From Phycisphaeraceae bacterium (GTDB lineage Bacteria; Planctomycetota; Phycisphaerae; Phycisphaerales; UBA1924), in NCBI GenBank assembly GCA_019636555.1, contig JAHBXH010000001.1, positions 2,948,928 to 3,012,927 of the forward strand: a stretch of 64,000 nt of DNA. Direction: 5' to 3'. Shown piece after piece: positions 42,943 through 59,271 of the stretch. The first letter of the stretch is position 1. The number at the start of each line of letters is the position of its first letter. Position numbers and translations under genes: made by a program. Below the pieces are notes generated by a model, which was given only the letters and a program-made list of their open reading frames with translations, was not told the origin of the DNA and made no database searches.

Positions 42943-43473
42943 TTACAGCCCGTCCTGATTCTTCGTCGTCACGATGTCATCCGAAAAGTCCACCGTGATC
43001 TCGATTCCATCGGTCTTCCATATCCAGCGGTCGCGTACCGGCGGACGGGACGCGACAACAGGCGCAGCTGCCAGAACGGAAGCCGACTTCCCCGAGGCTG
43101 CGGCAACCGAGCGCGCACCGGGAGATCCGGCGGGAACCGGCGCCGGATTGCCCTCCGCTTCGCGCTGAATCTGCTTATCGCGATTGGCGGCTTGCCCGGT
43201 GAGATCACCCAAGCCCTGCTTGATCTGATTCTGATTCTGGCGCTGCTGCGCGAACGTGATGTCCCCGAGCATGTCCTTCGCGAGCTTCGAAGCGCCGCCC
43301 TCAGTGATCTTTTCTCCCGGCCCCAAAATAGCCGTGACCTGATCAACCGTCATTCCAACCTGGATCTTTTCGTAGTTATCCCGCGTGAGCTTGTTTTCGC
43401 ACCCCATGATCAGGAACGAAAAAACGCCCATCGCAAAAAGCCGCAGAATCGAGACTTGCCGGTTGGTTTTCAT
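42943..43473 (-). CDS. Lipoprotein with BamE/SmpA-like domain
   Basis: The 176-residue protein has a lipobox (FLIMGC) and a first 60 mature residues of the SmpA/OmlA (BamE-like) type: NYEKIQVGMTVDQVTAILGPGE. A helical Gln/Asn-rich segment and a Pro/Ala-rich linker follow; the C-terminus (RWIWKTDGIEITVDF, then DDIVTTKNQDGL) resumes a beta strand pattern. A role in outer-membrane assembly is possible but unproven. It is divergent from the Bat-like operon. Confidence 0.7.
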   Translation of the reverse strand: MKTNRQVSILRLFAMGVFSFLIMGCENKLTRDNYEKIQVGMTVDQVTAILGPGEKITEGGASKLAKDMLGDITFAQQRQNQNQIKQGLGDLTGQAANRDKQIQREAEGNPAPVPAGSPGARSVAAASGKSASVLAAAPVVASRPPVRDRWIWKTDGIEITVDFSDDIVTTKNQDGL

Positions 43474-43628
43474 GACCGCTCCCACTGGTCCCATCGTACG
43501 AGAATACCGCATCCAGTTCCTGATACGAGCAGAAAGAGGGGTGCAGTCGCAGAAAGTTCGGTAAAACCAGCCACTCGGGCGGCTGGTGCGAACCGATAGG
43601 ATGGTCGTGCAGGGAGGCAATTGGACGC

Positions 43629-44687
43629 TTGGAAACCCCGAAAACCAGCGGAAATCCCGGAATCGGATCGGCTTCAGACCCGTCAACCGAGGCCTCTCTC
43701 TATCTCCATCCGCAGACCCTCGCCCGACTTTCGAGCTTCGAGCTCCGGGCCAAGATGATCGTGGAAGGGCTTTCAAGCGGTCAACATCGGTCGCCTTACC
43801 AAGGTTTCTCCGTCGAATTCGCTCAGCACCGTCCATATTCGCCGGGGGATGACCTTCGCCATCTCGATTGGAAGGTGTTCGCCCGCTCGGACAAACTGCA
43901 TCTCAAGCAGTATCAGCAGGAGACAAACTTCGACCTGATCGTGATGGTCGATTGCTCCGGCTCGATGTCGTTCGGAAGCAGATTGTTCGCCGAGGCCTCG
44001 GGAGCGGGAAGAAGAAACAGCCCGGACGGCCGGACGCACTGGAGCAAGTTCGATCACGCGACGGCACTCGCCGCGGCACTTTCGTACATCACGCTGCGCC
44101 AGGGCGATCGCGTCGGGCTGGAAATGTTCGATGAGCGCGTGCGCCTGGTGCTCAAGCGTTCCAGCAGTCAGGGAACGTGGCGCCAGATCGTGAGCGCGCT
44201 CTCATCGCACCCCGCGCGACGCTCGCACCCCGGCGCAGAAGACTCGACGAGCCGACCGAGCGATCTGCGACGTGCGATCGACGAGACCTTTGCTCAGATC
44301 ACCAACCGCTGCATACTCGCGATCGTCAGCGACTTTTTCATGGACATCGACACGATCAAGGATGCGCTTGCTCGCACTCGGCATGCACAGGCCGACGTGA
44401 TGGCGTTTCAGATTATGGACGAAGCGGAGCTGGACTTCGATCTCCGCGAGAACGCCGGAGGTGTGCTGCTCGAAGGGCTCGAAGGCGAATCAACTCTTCG
44501 GATCGATCCGCGCGCGATCCGAAAGGGCTATCTCGAGGCGCTCCACGAGCACAACGCCAAACTCCGGGCGCTCCTGCGCGGCATGGGGTACGACTACACA
44601 CTGGTCAACACGCACGAGTTCCTAGGACCGGCACTCGCCTCGTTTGTTTCTCGTCGCAATGCGCAGATCAAGAGGCACCTGGCATGA
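43629..44687 (+). CDS. DUF58 family protein (Bat-like operon, first gene)
   Basis: The 352-residue soluble protein has DUF58 hallmarks: SPYQGFSVEFAQHRPYSPGDDLRHLDWKVFARSDKL (split here as SPYQGFSVEF, then SPGDDLRHLDW), followed by a von Willebrand-like core with VMVDCSGSM (MIDAS-like DxSGS). In many bacteria DUF58 follows a MoxR AAA ATPase and precedes BatA/BatB proteins. The start is TTG at 43629 with GGGAGG 11 bases upstream; no nearer in-frame ATG fits. No MoxR gene adjoins it in this window. Confidence 0.88.
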   Translation: METPKTSGNPGIGSASDPSTEASLYLHPQTLARLSSFELRAKMIVEGLSSGQHRSPYQGFSVEFAQHRPYSPGDDLRHLDWKVFARSDKLHLKQYQQETNFDLIVMVDCSGSMSFGSRLFAEASGAGRRNSPDGRTHWSKFDHATALAAALSYITLRQGDRVGLEMFDERVRLVLKRSSSQGTWRQIVSALSSHPARRSHPGAEDSTSRPSDLRRAIDETFAQITNRCILAIVSDFFMDIDTIKDALARTRHAQADVMAFQIMDEAELDFDLRENAGGVLLEGLEGESTLRIDPRAIRKGYLEALHEHNAKLRALLRGMGYDYTLVNTHEFLGPALASFVSRRNAQIKRHLA

Positions 44688-44748
44688 AACAGCCCGAGGC
44701 CCCACGCCCCCACGCTTCACCGACCGTACGGATTGAATCGCCCGACGC

Positions 44749-47052
44749 ATGACGTTTCTCAATCCAACTCTGGCGATGGCGGCGCTCGCGTGCATCGCGG
44801 CGCCGATCATCATCCACCTGCTCTTCCGCCGGAAACGAAAGCCGCTGGAATGGGGAGCGATGAAATTCGTGCTGGAAGCGTTCAGGCGGCACAAGCGCAG
44901 GCTCCGGCTCGAACAGATCCTTCTGCTGGCGGCCCGGACTCTCGCGGTGCTCTGTCTGGCTCTGGCGGTTGGAAGACCGCTGTTTTCGGGCGCGAGTGCC
45001 GCCGACAGCAGACGGCCCCGCGATCTGACCATCGTGATCGATAACAGCCTCGCGTCGCAAGCGCGTGCGCCCGAGGCAGGAAGCGCGACCGAACTCGACT
45101 CGCAAAAGCAGCGCGCGGCGCACTTGCTGGAGGAACTGGATGCGGGACGGGGCGACCGCGCGACGATCGTTACGCTCGCATCGCCTGCGGAGAAGCTTCT
45201 CGCGGAACCATCCGGTGACCTCACCGGCGTTCGGCGCGTACTCGACCTGATCGAACCGGCCGACTCGGGCGCCGATTTTTCGGGGGCCGCGGCTCTGGCG
45301 CGCGACAATTCGTCCGGGGACTCTTCACGAGAAAAAACCGTTGCCTTGCTCTCGCCACTGCGAGCCGGGAGTATCGACCTCTCGCGCGAAACGCCCGAAC
45401 GCGATGTCGCGAACGAGACCGTCGGGGCTGATACACGGCTGACGCTCGTCGCGTCGCCCCCTTCGGACGACTCGGTCGAGAACGTCGCGATCACAGGACT
45501 CGAACCCCTGCGTTCGATGCTCCTGCGGACCGGTCAAATTACGTCGACTCAGCAGGCTCGCGTTTCCCTGCGACGATTCGGGCGAGGGATCGATCGCCCG
45601 GCATCCGTCCAGCTACGGCTACGCGTGACAGACGGGCGCGACGGTGATGACGAGCAATCATGGACAAAAACGCCGGTGCGCTTTGCCGCCGGCGAAGACG
45701 CCGTGACCGTACTCGCCCCTGTCGCGATGCCGGCAACAAAGGATGAAGCGATCCCGACCGCGTCGTGGATTGAAGGCAGAATCGATGATGATGCGATCAC
45801 GAGCGACAATGTCTTCCGGCGTCCCTGGAAAGTTCGGGAGCAACTCCGTATCGCGCTGATCGCGCCTGTCGAAGCCCGCGACGGCACAACCGGCCCAGCC
45901 GGATATTCGGCCGCCGACTGGCTCACGCTCGCGCTCGCGCCGACCGCTTCGACTCAGGGTGTGGATCTCGGATCTGAGAACGACCCGATCCGGATCAGCC
46001 GGATTGATCCGGGCCGGCTGACTGGACAAGCGCTCGGTGCGATCGACGCGGCATTCGTCGTCCGGCCCGATCTCGTCGACGGTGCCTCGTGGCCGCTCAT
46101 CGCCGACTTTGCCCGCAAGGGCGGGCTCGTCGTTGTTTGCCCTGCACCGCAGACCGGTGTGCAGCGCTGGACGGATGAATTTGTCAAGGCCATGGGTTTC
46201 GGCTGGATCTTCGAGCGCGAGGTGATCGAGTTCAAGGACCCGCGCCCGCTGGGAGGCGCGAATGCCGATCAGGCCATCATCGGAGCCTTGGGAGCCGATT
46301 TGACCGAACTCACTCGGCCCGTGGTCGCGACGCGGCTTCTCGGTGTGGATCTCAAGGGCGACGGTTCGTGGCTGCTCCGACTAAATGATCACCGACCGCT
46401 GCTCGCCTCCGCGCGTCCGATCGCGACGGGCGCCGCCGGCAAGGGACTCATCGTCGTTTTCTTCGTTTCGCCCGAATTGAGCTGGACAAATCTGCCGGCG
46501 ATGCCGTTGATGGTGCCTCTGATTCAGGAAATCGTGCGTCAGGGAGTGGGCATCGCTTCGGGGTCGATAGATCTGGTCGCGGGCGCGGCGCTCGAATCTC
46601 CCGACGAACTTCGAGCCATTGAGTCCAAGGATGGCGCGATCGTCCCGACCATCGCCAAACGCTCCGGAATCTGGCGCAGAGTGGATGATCGGGGAGTGAC
46701 AAAGGACGTAATCGCCGTCAACGTCGACACTCGCGGGTCAAGCACCACGACACAGCCCAGGGCGGCACTGGAGTCGTTTCTTCGCAAGTGGATGCGCACG
46801 CGCGACTTTGCATGGGCGGCGACAAACTCTCAGTCCCCCGGCGCACCGATCATGCTCAGCGGCTCTCGTCGCACACCCCCAATCGATCTTCCTCTCTTGC
46901 TCGCGGGCCTCTTGCTCCTCATGGTTGATGTGGTCTTCTCACGTCTCTTCAGCCACGCAACCGTTCGAGCAGACCGTCTCGATCGCCCTGCGTTGCCGCA
47001 ATCCGCCCAAGACCAGCCTTCCACAGATCAGATCCGCGAGGTGGCGGCGTGA
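44749..47052 (+). CDS. BatA-like membrane protein with degenerate VWA domain
   Basis: The N-terminus has the two-helix BatA module (LNPTLAMAALACIAAPIIIHLLFRRKRK, here residues 4-31, and a second helix at 63-80). The following VWA-like region starts DLTIVIDNSLASQ, where the DxSxS motif is incomplete. A long extracytoplasmic beta-rich part follows, with VVVCPAPQTGV, and a final membrane helix (near 715-735). It resembles proteins that flank DUF58 in planctomycetes. The stop overlaps the next gene's GTG start by 4 bp. Confidence 0.82.
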   Translation: MTFLNPTLAMAALACIAAPIIIHLLFRRKRKPLEWGAMKFVLEAFRRHKRRLRLEQILLLAARTLAVLCLALAVGRPLFSGASAADSRRPRDLTIVIDNSLASQARAPEAGSATELDSQKQRAAHLLEELDAGRGDRATIVTLASPAEKLLAEPSGDLTGVRRVLDLIEPADSGADFSGAAALARDNSSGDSSREKTVALLSPLRAGSIDLSRETPERDVANETVGADTRLTLVASPPSDDSVENVAITGLEPLRSMLLRTGQITSTQQARVSLRRFGRGIDRPASVQLRLRVTDGRDGDDEQSWTKTPVRFAAGEDAVTVLAPVAMPATKDEAIPTASWIEGRIDDDAITSDNVFRRPWKVREQLRIALIAPVEARDGTTGPAGYSAADWLTLALAPTASTQGVDLGSENDPIRISRIDPGRLTGQALGAIDAAFVVRPDLVDGASWPLIADFARKGGLVVVCPAPQTGVQRWTDEFVKAMGFGWIFEREVIEFKDPRPLGGANADQAIIGALGADLTELTRPVVATRLLGVDLKGDGSWLLRLNDHRPLLASARPIATGAAGKGLIVVFFVSPELSWTNLPAMPLMVPLIQEIVRQGVGIASGSIDLVAGAALESPDELRAIESKDGAIVPTIAKRSGIWRRVDDRGVTKDVIAVNVDTRGSSTTTQPRAALESFLRKWMRTRDFAWAATNSQSPGAPIMLSGSRRTPPIDLPLLLAGLLLLMVDVVFSRLFSHATVRADRLDRPALPQSAQDQPSTDQIREVAA

Positions 47053-49403
47053 ACGATCTGATCACAAGACTCTTCGCGCTGAAGACACTTCGACCCGGCG
47101 ATCCTGGCGTCGCGCTCGAATGGATACGTCCGATTCCCGCCTGGGGATGGACCCTCGTGCTGGCAGGGGCCGTTGCGCTTGCCTGGTGGGGCTACCGCCG
47201 ACTCGAGGGAACTATCAATCGCCGCGCGATTCTGGCGACACTGCGAGGGCTCTCGCTGGTGCTGGTGACCGCGATGATTTCGGGGCCGCGTCTCGTCAAG
47301 ACCGAAGAGACGGTGGAAAAGGACTGGGTCGTTGTACTCGCCGATCGCTCGCAGTCGATGGAAGTCGCGGACGTTGACGGCAAGTCGCGCGACGATCAAT
47401 TGCGCCATGCCGTCGAGGAAACCAAAAAAGCCCTCGCCAAGCTCGATCCGGAGCGAAATGTGCTTTGGCTCGGGTTCGACGCGCGGACCTTTGATCTTCC
47501 TCCGGACGCGAGCACTCTGCCGCCCCCCGACGGGACGCGCACCCTGATCGCTGCGGCACTCGAACAGACACTTCGGCGCGCCGCCTCCAAACCGCTGAGC
47601 GGCATTGTGCTGGTCAGCGACGGGCGCAGCGCCGACGAGCCGTCGCGATCGCTGCTCCGACAGCTTCAAGGACGGCAGGTTCCCGTGTTTTCAGTGGCGC
47701 TCGGCAGCGACGAGCCTCCGACTCGCATCTCGCTCAAGAGGGTCACCGCACCGTCGGTTGCGTTTGTCGGAGACTTTGTCCCGGTCACGGTCGATCTGGA
47801 AGCGATCGGAAAGCCGGAGGCATTGCGGGGCTCGAAGATCGACCTCATCGACGAAGCGACCGGCAAGCTGCTCGACAGCCGACCGGTCCCTGAGAGTGCG
47901 GGCACAACAGGCAACGCCACGCTCACCATGATGACTCGCCCGGGGAACGCTCAGGAATTCCGTTGGGTGGTGAAACCCGTTCTTCCCGAAGGAAACGGCC
48001 CGACCGCTGCGACCAAGAACGACGAGTATTCGATCGGGCTGCGCGTCTTGGATCGGCCCGTGCGCGTCGCGCTCTTCGACGGCTACCCGCGCTGGGAGTA
48101 CCGATACCTCAAGAACCTGCTGCTGCGCGAGCGCTCCATCCGGTCGAGCGCCCTCATTCTCTCCTCCGATCGACGCTATCTGCAGGAAGGCACCGATCCA
48201 CTCGCTTCGATTCCACGAACACGAGAAGAGTGGCTGCCGTTCGATGTCATCGTGATGGGCGATGTCCGATCCGAGCTCTTCAGCGCCGAACAACTCGCCC
48301 AGATCAAGGAGCTTGTCGCGGTCAAGGGCGCCGGATTGCTCTGGATAGCCGGACCCAACTCAACCCCTCAGACCTGGCGGAATACTCCCCTCGCCGACCT
48401 GCTTCCGTTCGCGCTCGATGACGGCTCTTCGGGCGCGAGAACATTCGCTGAATCAGTGCTCGTCTCGCCCGCGCCGGCCGCGGAGCGCCTCGGTGTGCTA
48501 CGGCTCGGCGAAGAGGGCTCGCAAGCATGGCCCGAGATCCTGAGCGATGTGAGCGCGGGCTGGAATGCTCTGCGATACGCCCAGCTCATCGACCCCAAGC
48601 AGCTCAAACCCGCGGCGGAAGTTCTCGCGGTGGCGAGCCCGTCGTCCGGCCCGATCGGAAGTTCGGGAGCGATGCCGCTGGTCATCACGATGCGCTACGG
48701 AGCCGGACGCGTGTTGTACGTCGCGACGGATGAAATCTGGCGCTGGCGATACGGTCGTGGCGAGACTTTGCCGGAACGCTTCTGGCTCCCGCTCGTTCGC
48801 CTGCTCGCGCGCGAAAGTCTCTCCCGGAGCGGGCAGCAAGCCATTCTCGACGCAACTCCCGAACGCGCGACCGTGGACCAGTCAGTACAGATTTCCGTGC
48901 GCTTGCTCGATCAATCTCTGCTGAACACCCGGCCAGTCTCTTTAACCGTTCGCGCCAAGCCTGAGTCTTCGAGCGACATCGGAGAGCAAAGCATCACCCT
49001 TCGTCCGCAGGAGAGCAACCGAGGCGTAGGCGAAGCGCCGAGCGGGCTTTACACCGGCAGCTGGACATTCGCGGAAGCGGGCGACTACACCATCAGGCCC
49101 GTCGACGCGATTCTCTCGGGGCTAGGTCTGAGCGCCAAAGTGGAGGTTCGGGCACGCGACGACGAAATGCGCGAACCTGCGGCGGATCATGTCCTGCTCG
49201 CGGAGATCGCCGACGCGACCGCAGGCCGCGTGCTCCGGACGGATGAAATCGGCCAGCTGACTGAATTGCTTCCAAACCGTCAGGTGCGCACCGCCGGCGA
49301 AACGTTGTCCGAGCCGCTTTGGGACAAACCCATCGTCTGGACGCTGTTGATCCTCCTGCTCAGTCTGGAGTGGATCGGCAGGCGACTCATCCGGCTCGCC
49401 TAG
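47049..49403 (+). CDS. VWA/glutamine-amidotransferase-like membrane protein
   Basis: The 784-residue protein has membrane helices at about 30-48 and 60-80, a VWA domain with a complete MIDAS-like DRSQSM (VVLADRSQSMEV), a beta-rich middle with VTAPSVAFVGDFVPVTVD, and a class I glutamine amidotransferase-like region around 330-450 (RVALFDGYPRWEYRYLKN, then LLWIAGPNS). One C-terminal helix precedes the stop. The start is GTG at 47049, overlapping batA by 4 bp. A role in a membrane chaperone-like complex is inferred from the operon. Confidence 0.84.
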   Translation: MNDLITRLFALKTLRPGDPGVALEWIRPIPAWGWTLVLAGAVALAWWGYRRLEGTINRRAILATLRGLSLVLVTAMISGPRLVKTEETVEKDWVVVLADRSQSMEVADVDGKSRDDQLRHAVEETKKALAKLDPERNVLWLGFDARTFDLPPDASTLPPPDGTRTLIAAALEQTLRRAASKPLSGIVLVSDGRSADEPSRSLLRQLQGRQVPVFSVALGSDEPPTRISLKRVTAPSVAFVGDFVPVTVDLEAIGKPEALRGSKIDLIDEATGKLLDSRPVPESAGTTGNATLTMMTRPGNAQEFRWVVKPVLPEGNGPTAATKNDEYSIGLRVLDRPVRVALFDGYPRWEYRYLKNLLLRERSIRSSALILSSDRRYLQEGTDPLASIPRTREEWLPFDVIVMGDVRSELFSAEQLAQIKELVAVKGAGLLWIAGPNSTPQTWRNTPLADLLPFALDDGSSGARTFAESVLVSPAPAAERLGVLRLGEEGSQAWPEILSDVSAGWNALRYAQLIDPKQLKPAAEVLAVASPSSGPIGSSGAMPLVITMRYGAGRVLYVATDEIWRWRYGRGETLPERFWLPLVRLLARESLSRSGQQAILDATPERATVDQSVQISVRLLDQSLLNTRPVSLTVRAKPESSSDIGEQSITLRPQESNRGVGEAPSGLYTGSWTFAEAGDYTIRPVDAILSGLGLSAKVEVRARDDEMREPAADHVLLAEIADATAGRVLRTDEIGQLTELLPNRQVRTAGETLSEPLWDKPIVWTLLILLLSLEWIGRRLIRLA

Positions 49404-49622
49404 GTCCCTCTCCCCGCCAGCCTCTCCGGGCCTCTGGACGCCGGCGGCTTGATTGGGCGCAAACAGTGCTGGAACCCGAATCTCCTCCGCACCGATCCCG
49501 GTATTCACCGTACAGTCTTGCGGCAGATCGTTCGAAAGTGGTTATTGGGAGCGTGCTCGCGATGGCCCGAACCTGACCGTGCGGGGTTGCGCTCCAGATT
49601 GCGATTGAGTTCCTGAAGCGCC
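49404..49622. other. Longest internal gap of the Bat-like operon
   Basis: 219 bp separate the VWA gene from the DUF4175-like gene, in contrast to the 4-bp overlaps elsewhere. TTGCGG followed 18 bp later by TTATTG (about 49525-49554) is a weak sigma-70-like pair. The gap may therefore hold a secondary promoter. No gene is visible in it. Confidence 0.35.
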
Positions 49623-52600
49623 ATGAACCATGAGCCCGGCACGCCAGCCTCCGTTCCGGCTCCCTCGCCCGTTGCGGGCGTGGCGAAGGCGATCGCCCCT
49701 TCGCTCGCCGCGCTCCGATGGCGAATCCGGCTCTGGTTGATCGTTGATCGGGCGAGCACTCTGCTCGGTTCGGGGTTAGCGGTCTGTCTCGCGGCGGGTC
49801 TTTTCGATTACCTGATCCGAATGCCTCGCGCAATGCGCTGTGCGCTCTGGCTCATCGGAGTCGCGCTGATTCTCGGCGCGATCCGCAGGTACGTTTTGCC
49901 TGCGATTCGGTTTCGTCCGTCGCTCACGGATTTGGCGCTCCGGATCGAGCAGACACCGGCGGGTCGGGAAGCCGGGCTGCGCGATGTACTGGCGGCCGGC
50001 CACGAGTTCAACATCGCACAAGCCGGACCGGGCGCGAGTTTGCGCCGGCAGATTGCTTCGATGGCGTCGGGTCTTTTTTCCGACCTGCGCATTGGCACCG
50101 TGCTGCGACCGGTGGGCGGCGCGAGGCGCGGGTTAACGCTCTTGATGCTCACGGTTGCCGTGCTTGCTGCCGTGGTGTCTCTCGCGCCCGTGATGACTCT
50201 GCTGGGCGCCAAGCGAACGCTGCTCCCGTGGACCGATGCGCAGTGGCCAAGCCGAACGGCACTCTTCGACGCGACCGCGGAGCGCGCCCACGCTCTCACA
50301 GCGGCGCTGCCGATGCGCGCCGTCTTGACGCGCACCAACCGGTCTCCAGGGCAAACGCGCGTCGAACTAAAATATCGATTGATCGATGGCGAACGGATCG
50401 GCGAGTTACAAACCGCGTTGTTGACGCCGCAGGGCGTGAAGCGCGATCGCGAGGTGCATGGAGAGGTGTACGAGCGATTGCTCGAGCCGCGTGCCCTCGC
50501 AGAAGCCACGGGCGGAGTGTCCTCCAAAGCTGATCGGCGGCTGGAGTACTGGTTCGAGACGAGCGACGCTCGCACGGAGTCGGCCATCATTCAACTTGTC
50601 GAGCCGCCCGCGGTGACGCGGCTGCGTGTCACGGTCGAGCCTCCAAGCTATGCCGCCACCGCAATCGGAAGCGAATCCGGGTTCGTCAGCGGAACGAAAG
50701 ACTTGGGCCCGGGGAAGCCCGAAGCCCCGGCGGTTGCACCGGTTTTGCAGGGCTCGCGCGTGGGTGTTGAGTTCACGCTCAACAAGGAGATCCCGCTTCC
50801 GATGTCAGCGTCGGGAGCAGAAGCAAACGCGTTCGCGACCAAGCTGATGCAGGGAACTACTCCGCCGGCGGATCTTGAGATACAGCGGCTGGAGAACGGC
50901 TTCCGGCTGAACTGGCTCGCTCAGGAGACCACCCGATTCGGGGCGCTTCTCGAGGACTCCTTCGGCATCAAGAGTCAGGATCCCTCGGCGGTTGGCCTTG
51001 TCGTCGTGCCGGATCGTCCGCCCACGCTGAGCGTGCTCAAACCCGCACAGGATGAATCGGTGCTGGCGTCGGCCGTTATCGACGTGGTGGGTGAAGCCCG
51101 CGACGATGTGGCGCTTGCGTGGCTGACGCTCGAGGCCCGCGTGCTTGCGGCGCGATCCGATTCACCCGGCGCGCCGCCGGAGCCCCGCGGCCAACCGGTG
51201 GAAATCGCGAGTTGGAAAGCGGAAACCGACGTTGCCAGTCTGCACGAGGCGCGCGCGGAGACCACCATCGAACTCGGCTCGTTCGACGTGAAACCAGGAG
51301 ATGAAATCCATCTTTACGCCGTCGGCAAGGACAATTTCGCGCTCGACGGGCATACACGCGATCCGGTCCTGTCCGCGCCGCGCAAGCTCCGCATCATCGG
51401 CGAATCGCAGTTCATCGAGCAGATTCTCGCCGAACTCGGAACTCTCCGCTCCGCGGCTCAGCGCATCGATCAGGATGAGCAGAGGCTCCAGCGCCAGATC
51501 CCGAACCTCACCGAAAAGGGCGGCAGCGAGCGCGCCGCTCGAATGCGGAAAGACCAGCAGAGTCTCACAGAACGGATCACACCGCCCGCGGCACTCGTCG
51601 ATCGACTCACCGAGCGCGTAGATCGCAACGCGCTCGCCGATCGAACCCTCCGCCAGATGCTCGAAGAATCGCGGCGTCTGCTCGACGAAGCCGCCGACCG
51701 TTCCAGGGAAGCGTCCGACGCACTCGATCGCGCCCAGGCGATCGACCCGGACGCACCGGCGGACGCCTCCGAAACGGAGCAGGCTCGCCAAGCGCAATCC
51801 GCGGTGCGTGACGCGATGGCTCGTCTCGCGTCGGTGCTGGATCAGGGAAAGGACGGCTGGGCCACTCGGCGTGAAATCGAAAAGCTGCTCGAGGATCAAT
51901 CGCGACTCTCGGAACAGACACGTGATCTTGCAGAACAAACCGGCGGGAAGAAGCCGCAAGACCTGACCCCGGCGCAGCGGCAGGATCTCGATCGCCTCGC
52001 GCGCGCGCAGCAGGAGCTTTCCCTGCGCGCCCGCGCCGCAACCGACGCTCTCCAGGACCGCGCCGCGAAAACCCGATCGACCGATCCGGCGCAGGCCGAG
52101 GCGATGGAGCGTGCCGCCGAGCAGTCCTCGCGCGATCAGCTCGAAGAAACGATGCAGCAGGCGGCGAAGAGCGCGGGCGAAAACCAGACGGCCAGCGCCA
52201 ACGACTATCAGAAAAAATCGGAAGAGACGCTCCGAAAGATGATGGAGGAATTAGACAAGGGAACTCAGAAGAAGAATGAATCACTCCGCCGCATGCTCGC
52301 CGATCTCGTCGAGCAGATTGAAGACTTGATGATCCGCCAGTCGGCGGAGCTCGAGAAGCTGGCCGATTCCGCCAAGCTCGGCCCCAATGAGACCCTCGAT
52401 GGCGCCCAGATCCGATTGAATCAGGACACGATTTCCGTCGCGGATTCGGCCCGCAAGGGCGGTGCCGAGACTGCACAGGTCGCCGACGCCGTCGACGCCG
52501 GAGCGAGCGATCAAGCGTCGGCCGTGAAGAGCCTGCGTCTTTCGCCCGCCGATACGCCGGGTGCCGACCGCTGGGAGCGTTCCGCGCTTGCACACCTCAC

Positions 52601-53342
52601 CGACGCTCGCGATCTCGCGAAGAAACTGAGCGACGAGTCGAACCGACGCGAAACCGAGAAACAGCGCGAGGAGCTGCGCAAGGCCTACGACTCCGCCCTT
52701 CAGCAGCAGATCGCGATCCGCGCCGATTCTTCGGGCTTCATGGGGAAGGAGCTCTCGCGGCGTGACCGAGCCGCCGTTCGCTCGCTCGGAGATAAACAGG
52801 AAGAGCTGCGGATCCGCATCGCGGATCTCCAGACGCAGACGAAGGAGCTTGCCGAGGAAGGAGTCTTTCACTTCAGCCACAAGCGGCTCGATACGCTCAT
52901 GAATCGCGCCGCGAACGCATTAAGAGACGGCGTGGCGTCCAAGGGCGTCGACGCCGATCAAGCCGCGAGCGCCTCGCTCCTCCGCTCGCTCGTTGATGCG
53001 CTCTCGCAGCTGAAGAACGAACAGGACTTCCGTAACGCCCAGGGCGGGGCCGGCGGCGCCGGCGGACAACAAGGCGGGCCGCGTCCGGTCATCCCGCCGA
53101 TTGCCGAACTCCGGCTCTTGCGTGCGCTTCAGCAGGATGCCGCCGGGCGAACACGCGAAGCCGCGGAGCAGCCGGGTGATGTCGCGACGATCGTGGAGAT
53201 CGGACGCCTCCAGCGCGAGCTTGCGGATCAGGGAGAGGGCCTGATCAAGAAACTGTCGCAGCAGCAGGGTGGCGGCCCGAAGCCGCCGGGTCTCCCCGGC
53301 AAGCCCGTTGATCCAATCAGGCCGGGGGAGGGTCCGCAGTGA
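49623..53342 (+). CDS. DUF4175-like large coiled-coil membrane protein
   Basis: A 1239-residue protein. Residues 1-200 have a basic Arg-rich lead and three hydrophobic segments (near 45-65, 74-90 and 165-185). Beta-rich sequence follows (200-600) with PPTLSVLKPAQDESV, then a long highly charged coiled coil (about 610-1150, with many Gln, Glu, Arg and Asp residues), and a Gly/Gln/Pro-rich tail. This is the DUF4175 layout found in planctomycete Bat-like operons. The last four bases overlap the next start. It may span the envelope as a scaffold; no enzyme motif is visible. Confidence 0.8.
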   Translation: MNHEPGTPASVPAPSPVAGVAKAIAPSLAALRWRIRLWLIVDRASTLLGSGLAVCLAAGLFDYLIRMPRAMRCALWLIGVALILGAIRRYVLPAIRFRPSLTDLALRIEQTPAGREAGLRDVLAAGHEFNIAQAGPGASLRRQIASMASGLFSDLRIGTVLRPVGGARRGLTLLMLTVAVLAAVVSLAPVMTLLGAKRTLLPWTDAQWPSRTALFDATAERAHALTAALPMRAVLTRTNRSPGQTRVELKYRLIDGERIGELQTALLTPQGVKRDREVHGEVYERLLEPRALAEATGGVSSKADRRLEYWFETSDARTESAIIQLVEPPAVTRLRVTVEPPSYAATAIGSESGFVSGTKDLGPGKPEAPAVAPVLQGSRVGVEFTLNKEIPLPMSASGAEANAFATKLMQGTTPPADLEIQRLENGFRLNWLAQETTRFGALLEDSFGIKSQDPSAVGLVVVPDRPPTLSVLKPAQDESVLASAVIDVVGEARDDVALAWLTLEARVLAARSDSPGAPPEPRGQPVEIASWKAETDVASLHEARAETTIELGSFDVKPGDEIHLYAVGKDNFALDGHTRDPVLSAPRKLRIIGESQFIEQILAELGTLRSAAQRIDQDEQRLQRQIPNLTEKGGSERAARMRKDQQSLTERITPPAALVDRLTERVDRNALADRTLRQMLEESRRLLDEAADRSREASDALDRAQAIDPDAPADASETEQARQAQSAVRDAMARLASVLDQGKDGWATRREIEKLLEDQSRLSEQTRDLAEQTGGKKPQDLTPAQRQDLDRLARAQQELSLRARAATDALQDRAAKTRSTDPAQAEAMERAAEQSSRDQLEETMQQAAKSAGENQTASANDYQKKSEETLRKMMEELDKGTQKKNESLRRMLADLVEQIEDLMIRQSAELEKLADSAKLGPNETLDGAQIRLNQDTISVADSARKGGAETAQVADAVDAGASDQASAVKSLRLSPADTPGADRWERSALAHLTDARDLAKKLSDESNRRETEKQREELRKAYDSALQQQIAIRADSSGFMGKELSRRDRAAVRSLGDKQEELRIRIADLQTQTKELAEEGVFHFSHKRLDTLMNRAANALRDGVASKGVDADQAASASLLRSLVDALSQLKNEQDFRNAQGGAGGAGGQQGGPRPVIPPIAELRLLRALQQDAAGRTREAAEQPGDVATIVEIGRLQRELADQGEGLIKKLSQQQGGGPKPPGLPGKPVDPIRPGEGPQ

Positions 53343-54043
53343 ATCTCATCAAACCATTGCTGCTCATCGCGATCCTCTCTTGGCACGGGGCACATGCCGC
53401 ACCCGATACGCCCGCTCCAACGAAAGACGCCCCAAAGCAGCAGGCGAAGCCGCCTCAAAAGCCCGCGTCAGAGATTCCCGATCTCGATTCGCTGCTGGGG
53501 ACCAAGCCGGACAAGCAAGAAGCCAAACCCGATGCCGCCGATCCTTCAAAGCGAGAACTCGATCGCCAGTTGTCGCTGCAGGAACAGGCCGACGAATTCG
53601 CGAAGGCCGTGGAACTGATGAACGAAACGGCGGATCGCGTGGAAAACGACAACGACACGGGGCTCGCGACCCAGCGGCTTCAGGAAGACATTCTCACCCG
53701 ACTCGATCGGCTCATCAAGGCGGCGCAGCAGAACAGCTCGAGTCAATCGAAAGAGCAGCAGGATCAGGACAAGGATCAACAGAAGAACAAGAACATGCGT
53801 CAGCAGTCGCAAGCGCAGTCGAAGCAGGCCGCGACAAACAACCCCGCCGACCGGGCAGACGGCCCAGATCGGGAAGACGGCGCCCTCGGCTCCCCTCCCG
53901 CAGCGCCTCCCGCCTCGTGGGGAGACCTGCCCGCCCACGTGCGTGACGCTCTGCTTCAGGGCTTTTCCGACAAATTCAGTTCGATGTATCAGAACATGAC
54001 CGAGTCGTACTACCGCAGACTGGCTGAAGAAAAGAAGAAATGA
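53339..54043 (+). CDS. Secreted Gln/Asp/Lys-rich hypothetical protein
   Basis: The 234-residue product has a signal peptide (LLLIAILSWHGAHA) and a long polar, probably disordered or coiled-coil body with SSSQSKEQQDQDKDQQKNKN, ending in a folded-looking C-terminal segment (LPAHVRDALLQGFSDKFSSMYQNM). It starts with GTG inside the stop of the DUF4175-like gene and overlaps the next gene by 4 bp. The composition suggests a linker or partner of the coiled-coil protein. Family unknown. Confidence 0.72.
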   Translation: MNLIKPLLLIAILSWHGAHAAPDTPAPTKDAPKQQAKPPQKPASEIPDLDSLLGTKPDKQEAKPDAADPSKRELDRQLSLQEQADEFAKAVELMNETADRVENDNDTGLATQRLQEDILTRLDRLIKAAQQNSSSQSKEQQDQDKDQQKNKNMRQQSQAQSKQAATNNPADRADGPDREDGALGSPPAAPPASWGDLPAHVRDALLQGFSDKFSSMYQNMTESYYRRLAEEKKK

Positions 54044-55242
54044 GCCGCCGGAACTCCAATCGCGTCGTCTTCTCTCTCGCACTGCTCTGCTGCGCAGCTC
54101 AAGTGATCGGCCGCCCGGACCAACCCACTCCGCCATCTGAGCCTGCGCCCGCCGAGCGGCCCTCGCCGCCTCAATTGCCTCCCTCGCCCGAGGAGCCCGG
54201 ATCTCCCAAATCGCTGCCCACCACCAGCGACAAATTTGATCTCCCCTTCACCGGCGATCACAAGTCTGCACAGAATGCGCCGACCGAAGGCGAGATGACA
54301 CCCCAACTCGACGCCGCGATTTCGCGCGGCCTCGCATGGCTCGCGCGAAAACAGAGCCCCGACGGGAGTTTCGGTGATGATCGCTGGGGCCGTTCAGTCG
54401 CGATCACGGCGCTCGCCGCCATCTCGTTCATGGCGGACGGCAATCTTCCCGGTCGCGGACCCTACGGCGAAAACGTCGAGCGCGCTCTCAAGCACGTTCT
54501 CGACAACTGCACCGAATCCGGGCTGATCGCCGGCGATACCGCCGCCGCACCGATGTACGGGCACGGCTTCGCGACGCTGTTTCTGTGCGAGGTCTACGGC
54601 ATGACCGGCGGCGGACCGGATGCCGCGCAGGCCTCTCGGTTACACAACGCGGTGCTTCGCGCCGTGCGCCTGATCTCCTCGACTCAGAATGATGAGGGCG
54701 GTTGGCGCTACAACCCCATCCCGAATGACGCCGATGTTTCGGTCACGATCTGCCAAATCATGGCGCTTCGATCGGCCCGCAACGCCGGGCTCGACGTTCC
54801 GAAACAGACGATCGATCGCGCGGTCGACTACATCCGTCGCTGCCAGAACGACGACGGCGGTTTCAAGTATCAATTGACGCCCGGCCCGAGCGCGTGGCCT
54901 CGCTCCGCCGCCGGAATCGCCAGCCTGTACTACTCCGGTGTCTACGAGGATGCTCAGATCGACAAGGGACTCGACTACCTCCGCGACAACGCGATGCCCG
55001 GCAAGGTTGACCGCTCGAGCCCCCATTACTTCTACGGACACTACTACGCCGCGCAGGCGATGTACCTCGCCGGAGGCACAAACTGGAGCAAATGGTGGGT
55101 CGCAGTCCGAACCGAACTCATCGCTTCGCAGCAGGGTGAAGGCTACTGGCAGGACCCCGGGGTCGGAGATGTGTACGGAACCGCGATGGCCCTCATCGTC
55201 CTTCAAATGCCCAAGCGTTATCTGCCGATCTTCCAGAAATGA
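54040..55242 (+). CDS. Squalene-cyclase/prenyltransferase-fold repeat protein
   Basis: The 400-residue product has a signal peptide, a Pro-rich linker (residues 27-65) and an alpha-barrel of QW-like repeats: GLAWLARKQSPDGSFGD, ISSTQNDEGGWRY, IRRCQNDDGGFKY, and LIASQQGEGYWQDP. The cyclase DxDD catalytic motif is absent; only the fold is recognised. It is exported rather than membrane-embedded. Homologues sit in planctomycete Bat-like operons, where their role is unknown. The stop overlaps the next start by 4 bp. Confidence 0.85.
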   Translation: MSRRNSNRVVFSLALLCCAAQVIGRPDQPTPPSEPAPAERPSPPQLPPSPEEPGSPKSLPTTSDKFDLPFTGDHKSAQNAPTEGEMTPQLDAAISRGLAWLARKQSPDGSFGDDRWGRSVAITALAAISFMADGNLPGRGPYGENVERALKHVLDNCTESGLIAGDTAAAPMYGHGFATLFLCEVYGMTGGGPDAAQASRLHNAVLRAVRLISSTQNDEGGWRYNPIPNDADVSVTICQIMALRSARNAGLDVPKQTIDRAVDYIRRCQNDDGGFKYQLTPGPSAWPRSAAGIASLYYSGVYEDAQIDKGLDYLRDNAMPGKVDRSSPHYFYGHYYAAQAMYLAGGTNWSKWWVAVRTELIASQQGEGYWQDPGVGDVYGTAMALIVLQMPKRYLPIFQK

Positions 55243-56489
55243 TGCGCCGCATATTCACTCTTTGTCTCTTCGTTGCCGCGATCCCGCCAGGCGCCACAGT
55301 TGCCTTCGCGCAGGAAACCGCGCCGGGCCGAATCGTGATCCTCGATCGGGACCTGCACCGGATCGCCGGTTCGCTCGAGAGTTTTTCCGCGAACACTCTG
55401 CAATACACCGACTCCACGGGACGTTCGCGCTCCATTGAGCGGGCGAGAGTGCTCGCGCTCTTCGGCACGCGATTGCACAGTGCTTCGGTCCCGTCCGCAT
55501 TGTCCGCCGGTGATGGAAGCGGCGGCGTGCCGGGCATTCTGCGCCTGACGGACGGTCAGGTCGTCCCCGGGTTTCTCATCGCCTCTGATTCCCCGGGCGA
55601 AAGCCTTTCGTGGCGCAGCCGCCGGATCGGACAGTTTGTCGTGCCGCTCGAGCGTGCTTCATCTCTCGCGCTCTCCGACGCTGTTCACGAGGAACAAAGC
55701 CCGCAGCGTGACACCGCCGTCCTCGCCAACGGCGACCGGCTCGAAGGCTTCGTCGTCTCGATCGGGAAGCAGCTTGTCATCGAAGTTGGTGGCAAGAACA
55801 ACGCGATCCCGATCGACCGGGCCACGCAGATCGAACTCGCGAACCCCGTTGAACCGGGCGCGCTCCCGCTTGTCTTTCTGAGTGACGGCTCGGCGCTCGC
55901 GGCAACCGACCTCGCCAGCGCGTCATCGCCCGGCAAGCCTTCGGCACCGAGCGCCACGGCGACGGCACAATGGGCGCTCGCCTCCGACGGCGGAACCGGT
56001 CTCGTTGATATTGAATCCATTGATTCGATTCTCTTTGAGCCCCGCGCCGTCGTGCCGCTCGCTTCCATTCCGATCGAACATTCGGTCGGGCTCGAAGGAC
56101 GACGCTGGACTCCGACGCCTTTCATCTCGCCAGTAAACTCTGCTCCGCTCGGGCTGGCATCCATCACGATTTCCGGTCCCGCGCAAGTTGATTGGATACT
56201 TCCAGACGGCAGCCAGAAATTCGGCGCCTCGATCATGCTCCCCCCGGGCGCAGCACCCTGGGGGAATGCCGCCGTGTCCATTCTGGTCGCCGATGCATCG
56301 GGGAGTTTCCGCGAAGTCGCGAAAGCCGAGCTTTCAGCGGACAAGCCGGCGGCAGATATCGTCGCAAATGTCACGGACGGAAGCGTTCTGCGACTGGAAG
56401 TCCGCAGCAGAGCGTACTCGGATGTTCAATCTCGCGTCACGCTCGGCGAGCCGCTTGTGCTGAGAAAGCCCAACTCGACGCGGCGCTGA
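55239..56489 (+). CDS. Secreted beta-rich hypothetical protein (NPCBM-like C-terminus)
   Basis: The 416-residue product has a signal peptide (cleavage near VAFAQE). Residues 30-240 contain three similar small beta modules with repeated RLTDGQVVPGFLI-, LANGDRLEGFVV- and LSDGSALAATD-like strands. The C-terminal 160 residues look like an NPCBM or jelly-roll fold (HSVGLEGRRW, then FGASIMLPPG). It may bind a cell-surface glycan. It is the last gene of the Bat-like operon, and converges on mraY with a 50-bp gap. Confidence 0.7.
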   Translation: MMRRIFTLCLFVAAIPPGATVAFAQETAPGRIVILDRDLHRIAGSLESFSANTLQYTDSTGRSRSIERARVLALFGTRLHSASVPSALSAGDGSGGVPGILRLTDGQVVPGFLIASDSPGESLSWRSRRIGQFVVPLERASSLALSDAVHEEQSPQRDTAVLANGDRLEGFVVSIGKQLVIEVGGKNNAIPIDRATQIELANPVEPGALPLVFLSDGSALAATDLASASSPGKPSAPSATATAQWALASDGGTGLVDIESIDSILFEPRAVVPLASIPIEHSVGLEGRRWTPTPFISPVNSAPLGLASITISGPAQVDWILPDGSQKFGASIMLPPGAAPWGNAAVSILVADASGSFREVAKAELSADKPAADIVANVTDGSVLRLEVRSRAYSDVQSRVTLGEPLVLRKPNSTRR

Positions 56490-56539: not shown

Positions 56540-57727
56540 CTAGCGCACTTTGATCGAGACCATCGCGAGCACCACGAGCAAAACCGTAATGATCCAGAAG
56601 CGGACGACGACCTGCTGCTCGGTCCAGCCCGAGAGATGCAGGTGATGGTGATACGGCGCAACCTTGAAAATGCGCTTCCCCTTCGTGTACTTGAAATATC
56701 CGACCTGCAGCACGACCGAGCCGGCTTCGATCAGGAACACGCCGCACATCGCGAGCACGACGAATTCCTGGCGCGTGATGACCGCGACGTACCCCGCCAT
56801 CGCGCCCAGCGAAAGCGCGCCGGTGTCCCCCATGAAGACACTCGCGGGGGAACAGTTCCACCACAAAAACCCGAAGCAGGCTCCGGCCATCGCGCCGGCA
56901 AAGACCGCGAGTTCATCCCCCATCGGAATGTGCGGCACAAGCAGATACTGCGACGCCGACTGACTCCCGGCGATCAGTGCCAGCACGACCAGGCCGATTG
57001 AAACGATCCCGCTCGTGCCCGCCGCCAATCCGTCCATCCCGTCGGAAATGTTCACGGCGTTGCTCAGCCCCGTGACGATGAGCGTCGCAAAGAGCACGAA
57101 GAGCGGAACCGACAGGTAAAAGAGCGAAGTCGATACATTGCCGGGGCTTTCCCAGGTCTTTTGCCCCGGCAGGTTGAGCACATGGAGCAGCTCTTCCTTC
57201 GTGGCCCCTCCCTGCCGGAACAGGAAGTACGAAACGAGGGCCGAGATAGCAAGCTGGAAAACCAGCTTTTCCCACGCATACAGCCCCTGACGGCTCTTGC
57301 TGCCTCGCCGCGAGGCCGTCAGTTTCAGCCAGTCATCCACGCCCCCAAGCACCGCGAACGCGACAAAGACCATGAGGCCCGCCTGAACAAAGAAATGGCG
57401 GAGGTCTGCCAACAGCAGCACCGAAACCAGAATCGCCCCGGCTATGAGAATCCCGCCCATCGTCGGTACGTTGGCGCGGCTTGCAGCGTGCCGCTGGAGA
57501 GCTTCGGCATCGCTGAGACCGGCATCCCCGATTTTCAGCCGCACAAGCATCGCGATGACGCGCCGCCCAAAGACGATCATGATGGCAAAGCTCAAAACCG
57601 CCGACGCCAGCGCGCGGAACTGAATCTGGTCAAGGATTGCCAGCGGGCTGTAGAAGCCTCTCTCGCCGAGCCATTGCCCATGTTCGGAGAGCCAACGCCG
57701 GGAGTAATCGAGAAGGACGTAGAGCAT
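56540..57727 (-). CDS. mraY: Phospho-N-acetylmuramoyl-pentapeptide-transferase
   Basis: MraY forms lipid I at the inner face of the membrane from UDP-MurNAc-pentapeptide and undecaprenyl phosphate. The 395-residue protein has about ten membrane helices and family motifs: PTMGGILIAG, NAVNISDGMDGLAAGT, and FMGDTGALSLGAMAG. The last-gene position of the murE-murF-mraY run suggests cotranscription, though 95 bp separate it from murF. It is followed by the convergent Bat-like operon. Confidence 0.96.
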   Translation of the reverse strand: MLYVLLDYSRRWLSEHGQWLGERGFYSPLAILDQIQFRALASAVLSFAIMIVFGRRVIAMLVRLKIGDAGLSDAEALQRHAASRANVPTMGGILIAGAILVSVLLLADLRHFFVQAGLMVFVAFAVLGGVDDWLKLTASRRGSKSRQGLYAWEKLVFQLAISALVSYFLFRQGGATKEELLHVLNLPGQKTWESPGNVSTSLFYLSVPLFVLFATLIVTGLSNAVNISDGMDGLAAGTSGIVSIGLVVLALIAGSQSASQYLLVPHIPMGDELAVFAGAMAGACFGFLWWNCSPASVFMGDTGALSLGAMAGYVAVITRQEFVVLAMCGVFLIEAGSVVLQVGYFKYTKGKRIFKVAPYHHHLHLSGWTEQQVVVRFWIITVLLVVLAMVSIKVR

Positions 57728-57822
57728 GAGGTATCAGAAGACCTGCCGGGGGCAGGCCGCGCCCCCCGTCCCGTTTGTTCGTTCCGATAGCTTTGCCAAC
57801 CGCACAATTTGCGCCTCGGACT

Positions 57823-59271
57823 TCAAACCCCAGTCTCCTGGGTTGTTCGAAGCGGACTCCCGGCGGAATCAAGTGCTCGGGCTACGCGCTCGACGCCCAT
57901 GCCTCGAGACCCCTTCAGAAGCACAAAATCGCCCGGTTTGAGCATCGAAGCAATGCGTCTCGCGTGCTCGTCGTCCATCCGCGGCAGGTTGACGACGCGC
58001 TCACCCGCCCACTTCTTCCGGACGCGCTCGGCCGCGAACATCATCAACGGCCCCGCCAGCACGACGAAATCGATCGATTGATCGCTCGCAACGGCCTCGC
58101 CGATTTCCCGGTGCGCGTCCGGCCCCGCATCTCCCATTTCGAGCATGTCGGCCAGCACCACCACCCGCCTCGCCGGATTCCTTTGACGCGCCAACACAGA
58201 AAACGCCTTGAGTGCCGCGAGCATGGAATCCGGATTGGCGTTGTAGGCGTCGTTCAGGATCGTGATCGGGCCGTGCGATTCGAGCCGCATCCGCATCTCG
58301 GGAGTGGCAGCCTCGGCGAGGGCGGTTCGAATGACCGTGTCATCAAGCCCGAATCGGCGCGCCACGGCAACCGCCGCCGCGCCGTTCAGCGCGTTGTGCG
58401 CACCGAGCAACGGCACCCTGAATTGCGCGCGCTCGTTGATCGAGAAAGAGGTTCCCAGTTCATCCGTCGCAACCGACCCGACTCTCAGATCGGCCTCCTC
58501 GGTCATTCCGAAGCGCAGCATGCTGCCTCGCTTCCCTCCGAGCATCAGCCCGCGCACGACATCGCCCAGCTCGACCGGCTGATCGGCGATGATCGCGACG
58601 CCGCCCGCGCGAATCTCCGAGGCGATCGCTGCTTCTTCCTCGAGAACTCCCTGCACGGAGCTCAGCCCCTCCAGATGCTCGCGCCCGATGCTGGTGATCA
58701 CCGCGATCTCGGGGTTGACGACGGAAGCCAGTTGCGCGATCTCCCCTTTTTCGTTCGTCCCGACTTCGCAGACCAGGTACTGATCCCCCTTGCGGGCCGA
58801 AAGTATCGTCAGCGGCACCCCGATCGCGTTGTTGAAACTCTTGGGCGACGACACTCCCCGAAAGTGACGGCTCAGAACCGACTCGACAAGCCGTGAGGTC
58901 GTGGTCTTGCCGTTCGACCCGCCGATCGAAACGACTCTCGTGCCCTCGAGTGTCCTGCGATATTCGCCGGCGCACCTGAGCAGCGCCGCACCGACGCTTT
59001 CCACCTGTACGATCGGCAATCCCTCGGCGACGCCGGATGCACCCGAAGCATCCTCGACGACCGCGAGCGCCGCCCCCGCTTTCTCCGCCGCACCAAGAAA
59101 CTTGTGCCCGTCCACTTTCTCGCCCTTGAGCGCGAAGAAAATGTTGCCCCTCTTCAATGATCGGGTATCGATCGACGCGCCCTGTGCTTCGGAGCGTGCA
59201 TTCGCGCCCGGCCTGACGAGCCAGTTCCCGCTCAAGACCGAACGCAGATTCTCGAGTTGCCAGAAACTCAT
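57823..59271 (-). CDS. murF: UDP-N-acetylmuramoyl-tripeptide--D-alanyl-D-alanine ligase
   Basis: MurF adds D-Ala-D-Ala to UDP-MurNAc-tripeptide in the cytosol. The Mur-ligase layout is present: an N-terminal SIDTRSLKRGNIFFALKG region, the P-loop GGSNGKTTTSRL (near 115-126), and the C-terminal NDAYNANPDSMLAAL. The 482 residues are normal. It starts in the 4-bp overlap with murE (ATGA), so translation is coupled. Confidence 0.95.
   Translation of the reverse strand: MSFWQLENLRSVLSGNWLVRPGANARSEAQGASIDTRSLKRGNIFFALKGEKVDGHKFLGAAEKAGAALAVVEDASGASGVAEGLPIVQVESVGAALLRCAGEYRRTLEGTRVVSIGGSNGKTTTSRLVESVLSRHFRGVSSPKSFNNAIGVPLTILSARKGDQYLVCEVGTNEKGEIAQLASVVNPEIAVITSIGREHLEGLSSVQGVLEEEAAIASEIRAGGVAIIADQPVELGDVVRGLMLGGKRGSMLRFGMTEEADLRVGSVATDELGTSFSINERAQFRVPLLGAHNALNGAAAVAVARRFGLDDTVIRTALAEAATPEMRMRLESHGPITILNDAYNANPDSMLAALKAFSVLARQRNPARRVVVLADMLEMGDAGPDAHREIGEAVASDQSIDFVVLAGPLMMFAAERVRKKWAGERVVNLPRMDDEHARRIASMLKPGDFVLLKGSRGMGVERVARALDSAGSPLRTTQETGV

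Follow-up and report, generated by a model that had tools for sequence, protein, structure and literature searches.

What does a planctomycete operon do that resembles the Bat genes, carries no moxR at its head, and ends in genes for predicted exported proteins, and where is the MoxR ATPase that would work with it? These questions are raised by a locus of a Phycisphaeraceae bacterium (assembly GCA_019636555.1, contig JAHBXH010000001.1), which we analyzed within a window of 64,000 nucleotides, the whole stretch considered here, to which coordinates refer unless another locus is named. MoxR-VWA systems are widespread, although to our knowledge few of them have known clients, and the envelope biology of planctomycetes is unusual. 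At 43629–56489, seven open reading frames (ORFs), all in the same direction, encode a DUF58 protein, a BatA-type membrane protein, a VWA membrane protein, a large coiled-coil protein, a Gln-rich protein, a cyclase-fold protein (the toroid), and a beta-rich protein. Our preferred reading, to which we assign a probability of roughly 0.55, is that this operon supplies the membrane-bound and exported components, including the toroid and a putative glycan-binding head, of a Bat/Cmd-type MoxR-VWA system of the envelope that is conserved across much of the Planctomycetota and works by the mechanism proposed below. No description of the gene set was found in the literature searched, which mostly excluded subscription papers.

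Operon Structure and Membrane Components

The genes had been described in an initial annotation, made from the sequence without database searches, as a tightly packed operon. They are indeed co-directional and form a conserved set; their six junctions comprise four 4-bp overlaps, one 61-bp gap, and one 219-bp gap, so that packing is tight everywhere but between the VWA and coiled-coil genes. The gap at that junction has a median of 187 bp in the window's family versus 86 bp elsewhere. Its greater length is compatible with a second transcription unit there, short of proof; a promoter scan of the whole region returned one promoter-like site against 1.3 expected, and none inside the 219-bp gap.

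The first gene (43629..44687, plus strand, as are all seven) encodes a DUF58 protein (PF01882, 8.2e-39) with no transmembrane (TM) segment, predicted to be soluble. Its metal ion-dependent adhesion site (MIDAS, DxSxS) is intact (DCSGS at residue 108), as it is in 31/31 relatives; the gene is called from a TTG codon, and the real start may lie further downstream. The BatA-type protein (44749..47052; PF07584, 2.2e-15; TIGR02226, two_anch, 1.3e-18) has two N-terminal TM segments (residues 4–22 and 57–75) and one C-terminal segment (712–730), and its VWA domain is degenerate, DxSxS being found in only three of 31 relatives. Both genes had been correctly named beforehand, as had the VWA gene (47049..49403), whose product has at least one TM segment, an intact DxSxS motif (DRSQS at residue 99; 30 of 31 relatives), and matches to PF00092 (0.0079) and DUF7408 (0.0019) that are both under the cut-off. 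This protein may also have a GATase-like part.

The coiled-coil protein (49623..53342), which has orthologues in relatives, begins with three TM segments (residues 47–65, 69–87, and 173–191). It had been likened to DUF4175, a membership that we reject: the window protein has no Pfam match at E ≤ 1 (only a chance-level hit to DUF2229 at 9.5), nothing in its own genome matches DUF4175 over the cut-off, and a single orthologue of 32 matches it (PF13779) weakly, at 0.0067. The adjoining Gln-rich protein (53339..54043; 24 Q in 234 residues) is predicted, as the annotation had it, to be exported, having a signal-like N-terminal sequence. Its C-terminal motif, WGxLP...YYRRLAE (53918..54040), is kept in separate and fused forms alike, WGxLP occurring near the C-terminus of 28/28 separate Gln-rich proteins and of eight fused ones. 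These fusions, in which the coiled-coil protein is joined to the Gln-rich protein and the latter ends at the fused C-terminus, occur in eight relatives (L063, L069, L073, L079, L120, L121, L187, and L194) and are a strong sign that the two proteins act together. As single sequences, the coiled-coil, Gln-rich, and beta-rich proteins of the window returned nothing over the cut-off in Pfam or NCBIfam.

Location of the MoxR Gene

A genome-wide search for confident moxR matches found none within the cluster and four outside it, the nearest at C1:2813534. The first (L007) is part of a classical, BatD-containing Bat operon, the second (L009) is part of another MoxR-DUF58-BatA locus, and the third (L008) sits among other genes; the fourth (L010, C1:156165-157271) is an orphan. 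In a tree of 36 MoxR sequences (midpoint-rooted, with long branches), the orphan nests within the clade of head-type MoxR proteins (support 98/92), and the MoxRs of L007, L008, and L009 fall outside it. The relatives' MoxR proteins closest to the orphan are encoded upstream of the DUF58 gene (L064–L066, L069–L073, L079, L081, and L083); orphan-like MoxR genes also lie upstream of it in L211 (one called ORF between), L212, and L213 (three between). Because this orthologue is present elsewhere in the genome, MoxR has been neither lost nor replaced. The claim that the operon is without MoxR thus holds for the locus and fails for the genome. The initial annotation had also taken a moxR directly upstream of these genes in another assembly to speak against its interpretation, and that arrangement is the one found in relatives.

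It had further proposed that moxR was replaced by a divergent lipoprotein gene (42943..43485, minus strand; lipobox IMGC; weak BamE match, 0.0014). Such a gene does flank the operon. It was called there in all five same-genus regions (L051–L055) but not in any other region compared from relatives, and outside the genus other genes occupy its place. With the moxR orthologue elsewhere in the genome and the lipoprotein restricted to the genus, we reject loss or replacement, and the lipoprotein is probably not part of the system. We read the window's locus instead as a derived, unlinked state, with moxR moved elsewhere in the same genome, because the full MoxR-headed order is also found in other families of the phylum. 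A head-type moxR lies within 9.5 kb of the VWA gene, on the same strand, in three of the 37 genomes from the window's family versus 14 of 24 genomes of other families; a further genome of the window's family (G029), counted beyond the three, has such a gene near VWA with three ORFs between. The MoxR tree places the orphans of family f5 in a clade separate from that of the orphans in the window's family, which implies, by that tree, at least two unlinking events.

The unlinking invites a different explanation, namely that the operon is MoxR-independent in this lineage and forms a passive envelope or adhesion structure, the orphan MoxR serving some other client such as the adjacent transglutaminase. 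It is favored by the extent of unlinking (moxR was scored unlinked in 27/37 genomes of the window's family and 4/6 genomes of f5) and by the Transglut_core gene (L010:5488-6993, 7e-11) that follows the orphan moxR in this genome, a 74% identical gene occupying that place in G007. The neighbors of the orphan moxR vary between genera, however; the gene itself is retained in 51 of 61 genomes at 61–93% identity, not counting this genome and a few split or more distant matches, and the metal sites of the DUF58 and VWA proteins, as given above, are intact. We therefore think this explanation unlikely.

Other genes occur beside moxR in relatives. It adjoins dnaA in several families (L066, L206, L207, L214, and others, with a DnaA Pfam match for L066), the genes before it in several relatives also include one for a protein read as a metallo-beta-lactamase fold, and in L206 a gene for a NADH dehydrogenase subunit comes after it. 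Passages of PMC12067865 describe a set of MoxR, DUF58, and transglutaminase genes from bifidobacteria.

Conservation across the Planctomycetota

Matches to the coiled-coil protein were found in 56 of 61 relatives' genomes, to the toroid in 59 (any match), to the VWA protein in 57, and to the beta-rich protein in 59; in 51 of the 61, more than expected by chance, the genes for the cyclase-fold and coiled-coil proteins share a strand and lie within 6 kb of each other. Among genomes at least 90% complete, MoxR, VWA, coiled-coil protein, and toroid are all kept in 47 of 53. Failure of the genes to co-occur in relatives had been named as evidence against the grouping; these four components do co-occur. 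These co-retention and linkage counts were compiled from best matches entered by hand from separate searches, with completeness for G037–G060 set to 95 as a stand-in for 91–99. Excluded from them were MoxR matches of about 52% identity or less (G003, G012, G014, G015, G028, and G050) and of 57–58% (G040, G041, and G052), toroid matches below 45% (G040, G041, and G052), the G050 toroid match (8.8e-4), and VWA matches of divergent type (G040, G041, G050, and G052). Some of the split calls may stem from contig ends (e.g., G003, G014, G042, and G047).

A survey of 294 phylum genomes gave matches to the toroid in 249 (E ≤ 1e-30) and to the coiled-coil protein in 229 (E ≤ 1e-20); 269 encode a close MoxR (E ≤ 1e-90). 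A hand comparison of the two match lists places toroid and coiled-coil protein together in 227, that is, in most sampled planctomycetes, with the toroid alone in 22, the coiled-coil protein alone in two, and neither in 43. Seven genomes of the same class are without toroid, coiled-coil protein, and close MoxR alike.

In gene order, moxR stands at the head in the majority of the order's other families, as well as in families elsewhere in the phylum. Among 20 phylum regions, picked from the top toroid matches rather than at random, three (L249, L251, and L266) have the full eight-gene order MoxR-DUF58-BatA-VWA-coiled-coil-Gln-rich-cyclase-fold-beta, and the remainder have partial or rearranged forms. 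Gene calls in the fetched loci came from a codon-usage caller, with approximate start positions; for L173, L191, L257, and L261 it returned none, and for L248 a single gene. Named database records carrying the cluster are nearly all metagenome-assembled genomes (MAGs) of Phycisphaerales or Planctomycetota, and in them the coiled-coil/Gln-rich/toroid/beta block is the steadiest, DUF58-BatA-VWA sometimes being found elsewhere. The system consists of three units (moxR, DUF58-BatA-VWA, and the last four genes) that are separable yet co-kept in genomes. A missing neighbor is accordingly not to be taken for a missing partner: moxR was unlinked repeatedly by the tree, yet kept. Anatomy, conservation, and fusions together give good support to the earlier view of a Bat-like set predicted to span the envelope.

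Several records stand apart. The divergent operon L084 (G040) has the toroid gene directly upstream of MoxR-DUF58-BatA and is flanked by genes for large proteins with LysM, BamB-like, and TPR domains; a similar toroid-MoxR adjacency is seen by coordinates in G052, G057, and G048. Records titled Cyanobacteria, Leptolyngbya, and Isosphaera (L124, L134, and L155) carry a Phycisphaerales-type cluster and are probably mislabelled or mis-binned MAGs. In G013 and G032, and likewise in L154, the coiled-coil gene is interrupted by TGA or split in two, possibly through sequencing error or decay.

The Toroid and Its C-Terminal Tail

The cyclase-fold protein (54040..55242; PF13243, 2.4e-8) is predicted from its N-terminal sequence to be exported. 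Its AlphaFold2 model (mean predicted local distance difference test score [pLDDT] 84.8) is a single alpha/alpha toroid, nearest in fold to squalene-hopene cyclase 3sqc (VIA Z 27.2, 277 aligned residues, 2.6 Å) and close as well, by structure comparison, to glycosidases, epimerases, and the transaldolase AprG. As the initial annotation had noted, the DxDD motif is absent, both from the window protein and from all 58 orthologues aligned. All 58 have MYGHG (54553..54567, at the start of the second inner helix) and [DE]ADxS (DADVS in the window, 54727..54741, at the start of the third). We take MYGHG to lie near the DxDD position of squalene-hopene cyclase, an approximate placement based on profile alignment and the DxDD numbering of that enzyme. 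The inner helices are more conserved than the outer ones (0.88 vs 0.65, p 1e-9), and residues H175, D232, R288, and D372 are invariant in orthologues. A functional cavity in the toroid is probable, with a chemistry other than classical terpene cyclization.

The last twelve residues of the toroid (389–400; 55204..55239, ...YLPIFQK) are near-invariant, with a mean column identity of 0.97 over the 58 orthologues; the tail reads LPIFQ[KR], with LPIFQ in 54 of them. Over the last ten residues, mean identity in the sets from relatives' loci is 0.91 for the toroid versus 0.24–0.72 for the six other proteins measured. Among 17 toroid homologues from across the phylum scoring above 300 bits, every one has [LV]P[IV][FLY] within its last ten residues, and 12 have LPIFQ.

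Conservation of this kind could also be that of an enzyme. The toroid might act on envelope lipid or glycan, with the other genes exporting and anchoring it and MoxR only maturing it, for example by metal or cofactor insertion. It is the best conserved exported member (51–88% identity to the window's protein vs 18–62% for the beta-rich protein), its conservation is highest in the inner helices, it has the invariant residues named above, and its fold is common to several enzyme families, the cyclases among them. Yet DxDD is missing, no known catalytic set or ligand was recognized for the toroid, and fold matches do not establish function; we hold an enzyme of this sort to be improbable.

The Beta-Rich Protein

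The last gene (55239..56489), earlier called simply beta-rich, encodes a predicted exported protein for which that label is correct but too vague. The AlphaFold2 model (pLDDT 87.7) has four small five-stranded barrels (residues 32–265), which may be SH3/Sm-like, followed by a C-terminal jelly roll (residues 268–412; 56040..56474) that matches CBM51 (7jrm, VIA Z 15.8, 128 aligned residues, 2.3 Å); the CBM51 part dominates the VIA list for this protein. Of 60 orthologues, 11 match NPCBM (PF08305), at best with 3.9e-8, the window protein itself having no match to it at E ≤ 1, and a PDB sequence search with the beta-protein profile yielded no convincing hit (lowest E 0.39). By its fold, the CBM51/NPCBM-type domain is a candidate carbohydrate-binding domain.

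A Proposed Mechanism

Sequence and predicted fold suggest a place for each protein: a cytosolic-type DUF58 protein; BatA, VWA, and coiled-coil proteins in the inner membrane; and exported Gln-rich, toroid, and CBM51-type proteins. In the mechanism that we propose, a MoxR AAA+ ring and the DUF58 protein would act at the cytosolic face to drive ATP-dependent assembly or conformational change of an inner-membrane VWA/coiled-coil complex. The BatA, VWA, and coiled-coil proteins would span the membrane, and the VWA/coiled-coil complex would use the conserved tail at the toroid's C-terminus to dock and activate that exported protein. The CBM51-type protein would tether the assembly to a glycan of the envelope or surface; it and the toroid would act at the wall or surface after export. 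The toroid, its tail, the co-kept or fused membrane partners, and the glycan-binding-type protein suggest concretely what the client, the docking signal, and the target may be.

Several points count against this reading. Six of the 53 near-complete genomes (G025, G028, G040, G041, G050, and G052) are without one or more components at the cut-offs used; family f50 keeps a close MoxR without toroid or coiled-coil protein among the matches listed; and co-occurrence in genomes is confounded by kinship. The N-terminal ends of the toroid's inner helices, taken alone, are not more conserved than the rest (p 0.18), and pLDDT falls to 64 in the last block of the model, so that the position of the tail is uncertain. 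Complex formation, export, glycan binding, and MoxR dependence are all predictions from sequence. More tentatively still, and in our judgment doubtful though possible, the system may be a distinct MoxR-powered machine in which a non-cyclase toroid is the dedicated client, recognized by its tail, switched by the VWA/coiled-coil pair, and acting on or clamping a wall or surface glycan held by the CBM51-type partner.

Comparison with Known Systems

The operon resembles the Bat operon (MoxR-DUF58-BatA-BatB-BatD) in its DUF58 protein, its two-anchor BatA VWA protein, its predicted envelope location, and the MoxR partner of relatives, and differs in adding the coiled-coil, Gln-rich, toroid, and CBM51-type proteins. 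That it is a divergent form of the Bat (Bacteroides aerotolerance) operon itself, as the shared DUF58 and BatA domains might suggest, is very unlikely. The same genome holds a separate MoxR/DUF58/BatA-VWA/VWA/BatD operon (L007), no match to BatD (PF13584, seven window proteins, E ≤ 1) or TPR was found in the window operon with Pfam, and the operon-type MoxR groups apart from that of L007 in the tree; we reject this identification. Set against the MoxR-led eight-gene operon of planctomycetes, this genome has the orthologous MoxR and the seven other genes in order, with moxR not at the head.

Other MoxR systems share part of the design. The MoxR operon RL3499–RL3502 (cmdA-D) of Rhizobium, a MoxR-led envelope set, is tied to cell morphology and envelope integrity in passages of PMC5700661 and PMC3893208; compared by description, those passages mention no gene for an exported toroid or CBM51-type protein. 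Some of the MoxR-vWA ternary conflict systems, which share a chaperone/co-chaperone logic of MoxR and vWA, are found in planctomycetes, according to sections of Kaur et al. 2020 (PMC7159879), where VMAP, iSTAND, FtsH, or beta-propeller components define them; the main text of that paper does not use the term DUF58. At E ≤ 1, Pfam matched none of these four components in the window's seven proteins, dedicated models for them not having been searched individually. With the squalene-hopene cyclase/prenyltransferase family the window toroid shares its fold and the PF13243 match, and it differs in lacking DxDD, in being a single toroid predicted to be exported, and in having the conserved C-terminal tail.

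Genes Downstream of the Operon

At 56540–60884, mraY, murF, and murE, named from relatives and sequence without a family search, lie on the opposite strand and converge on the operon, an arrangement common to many members of the family.

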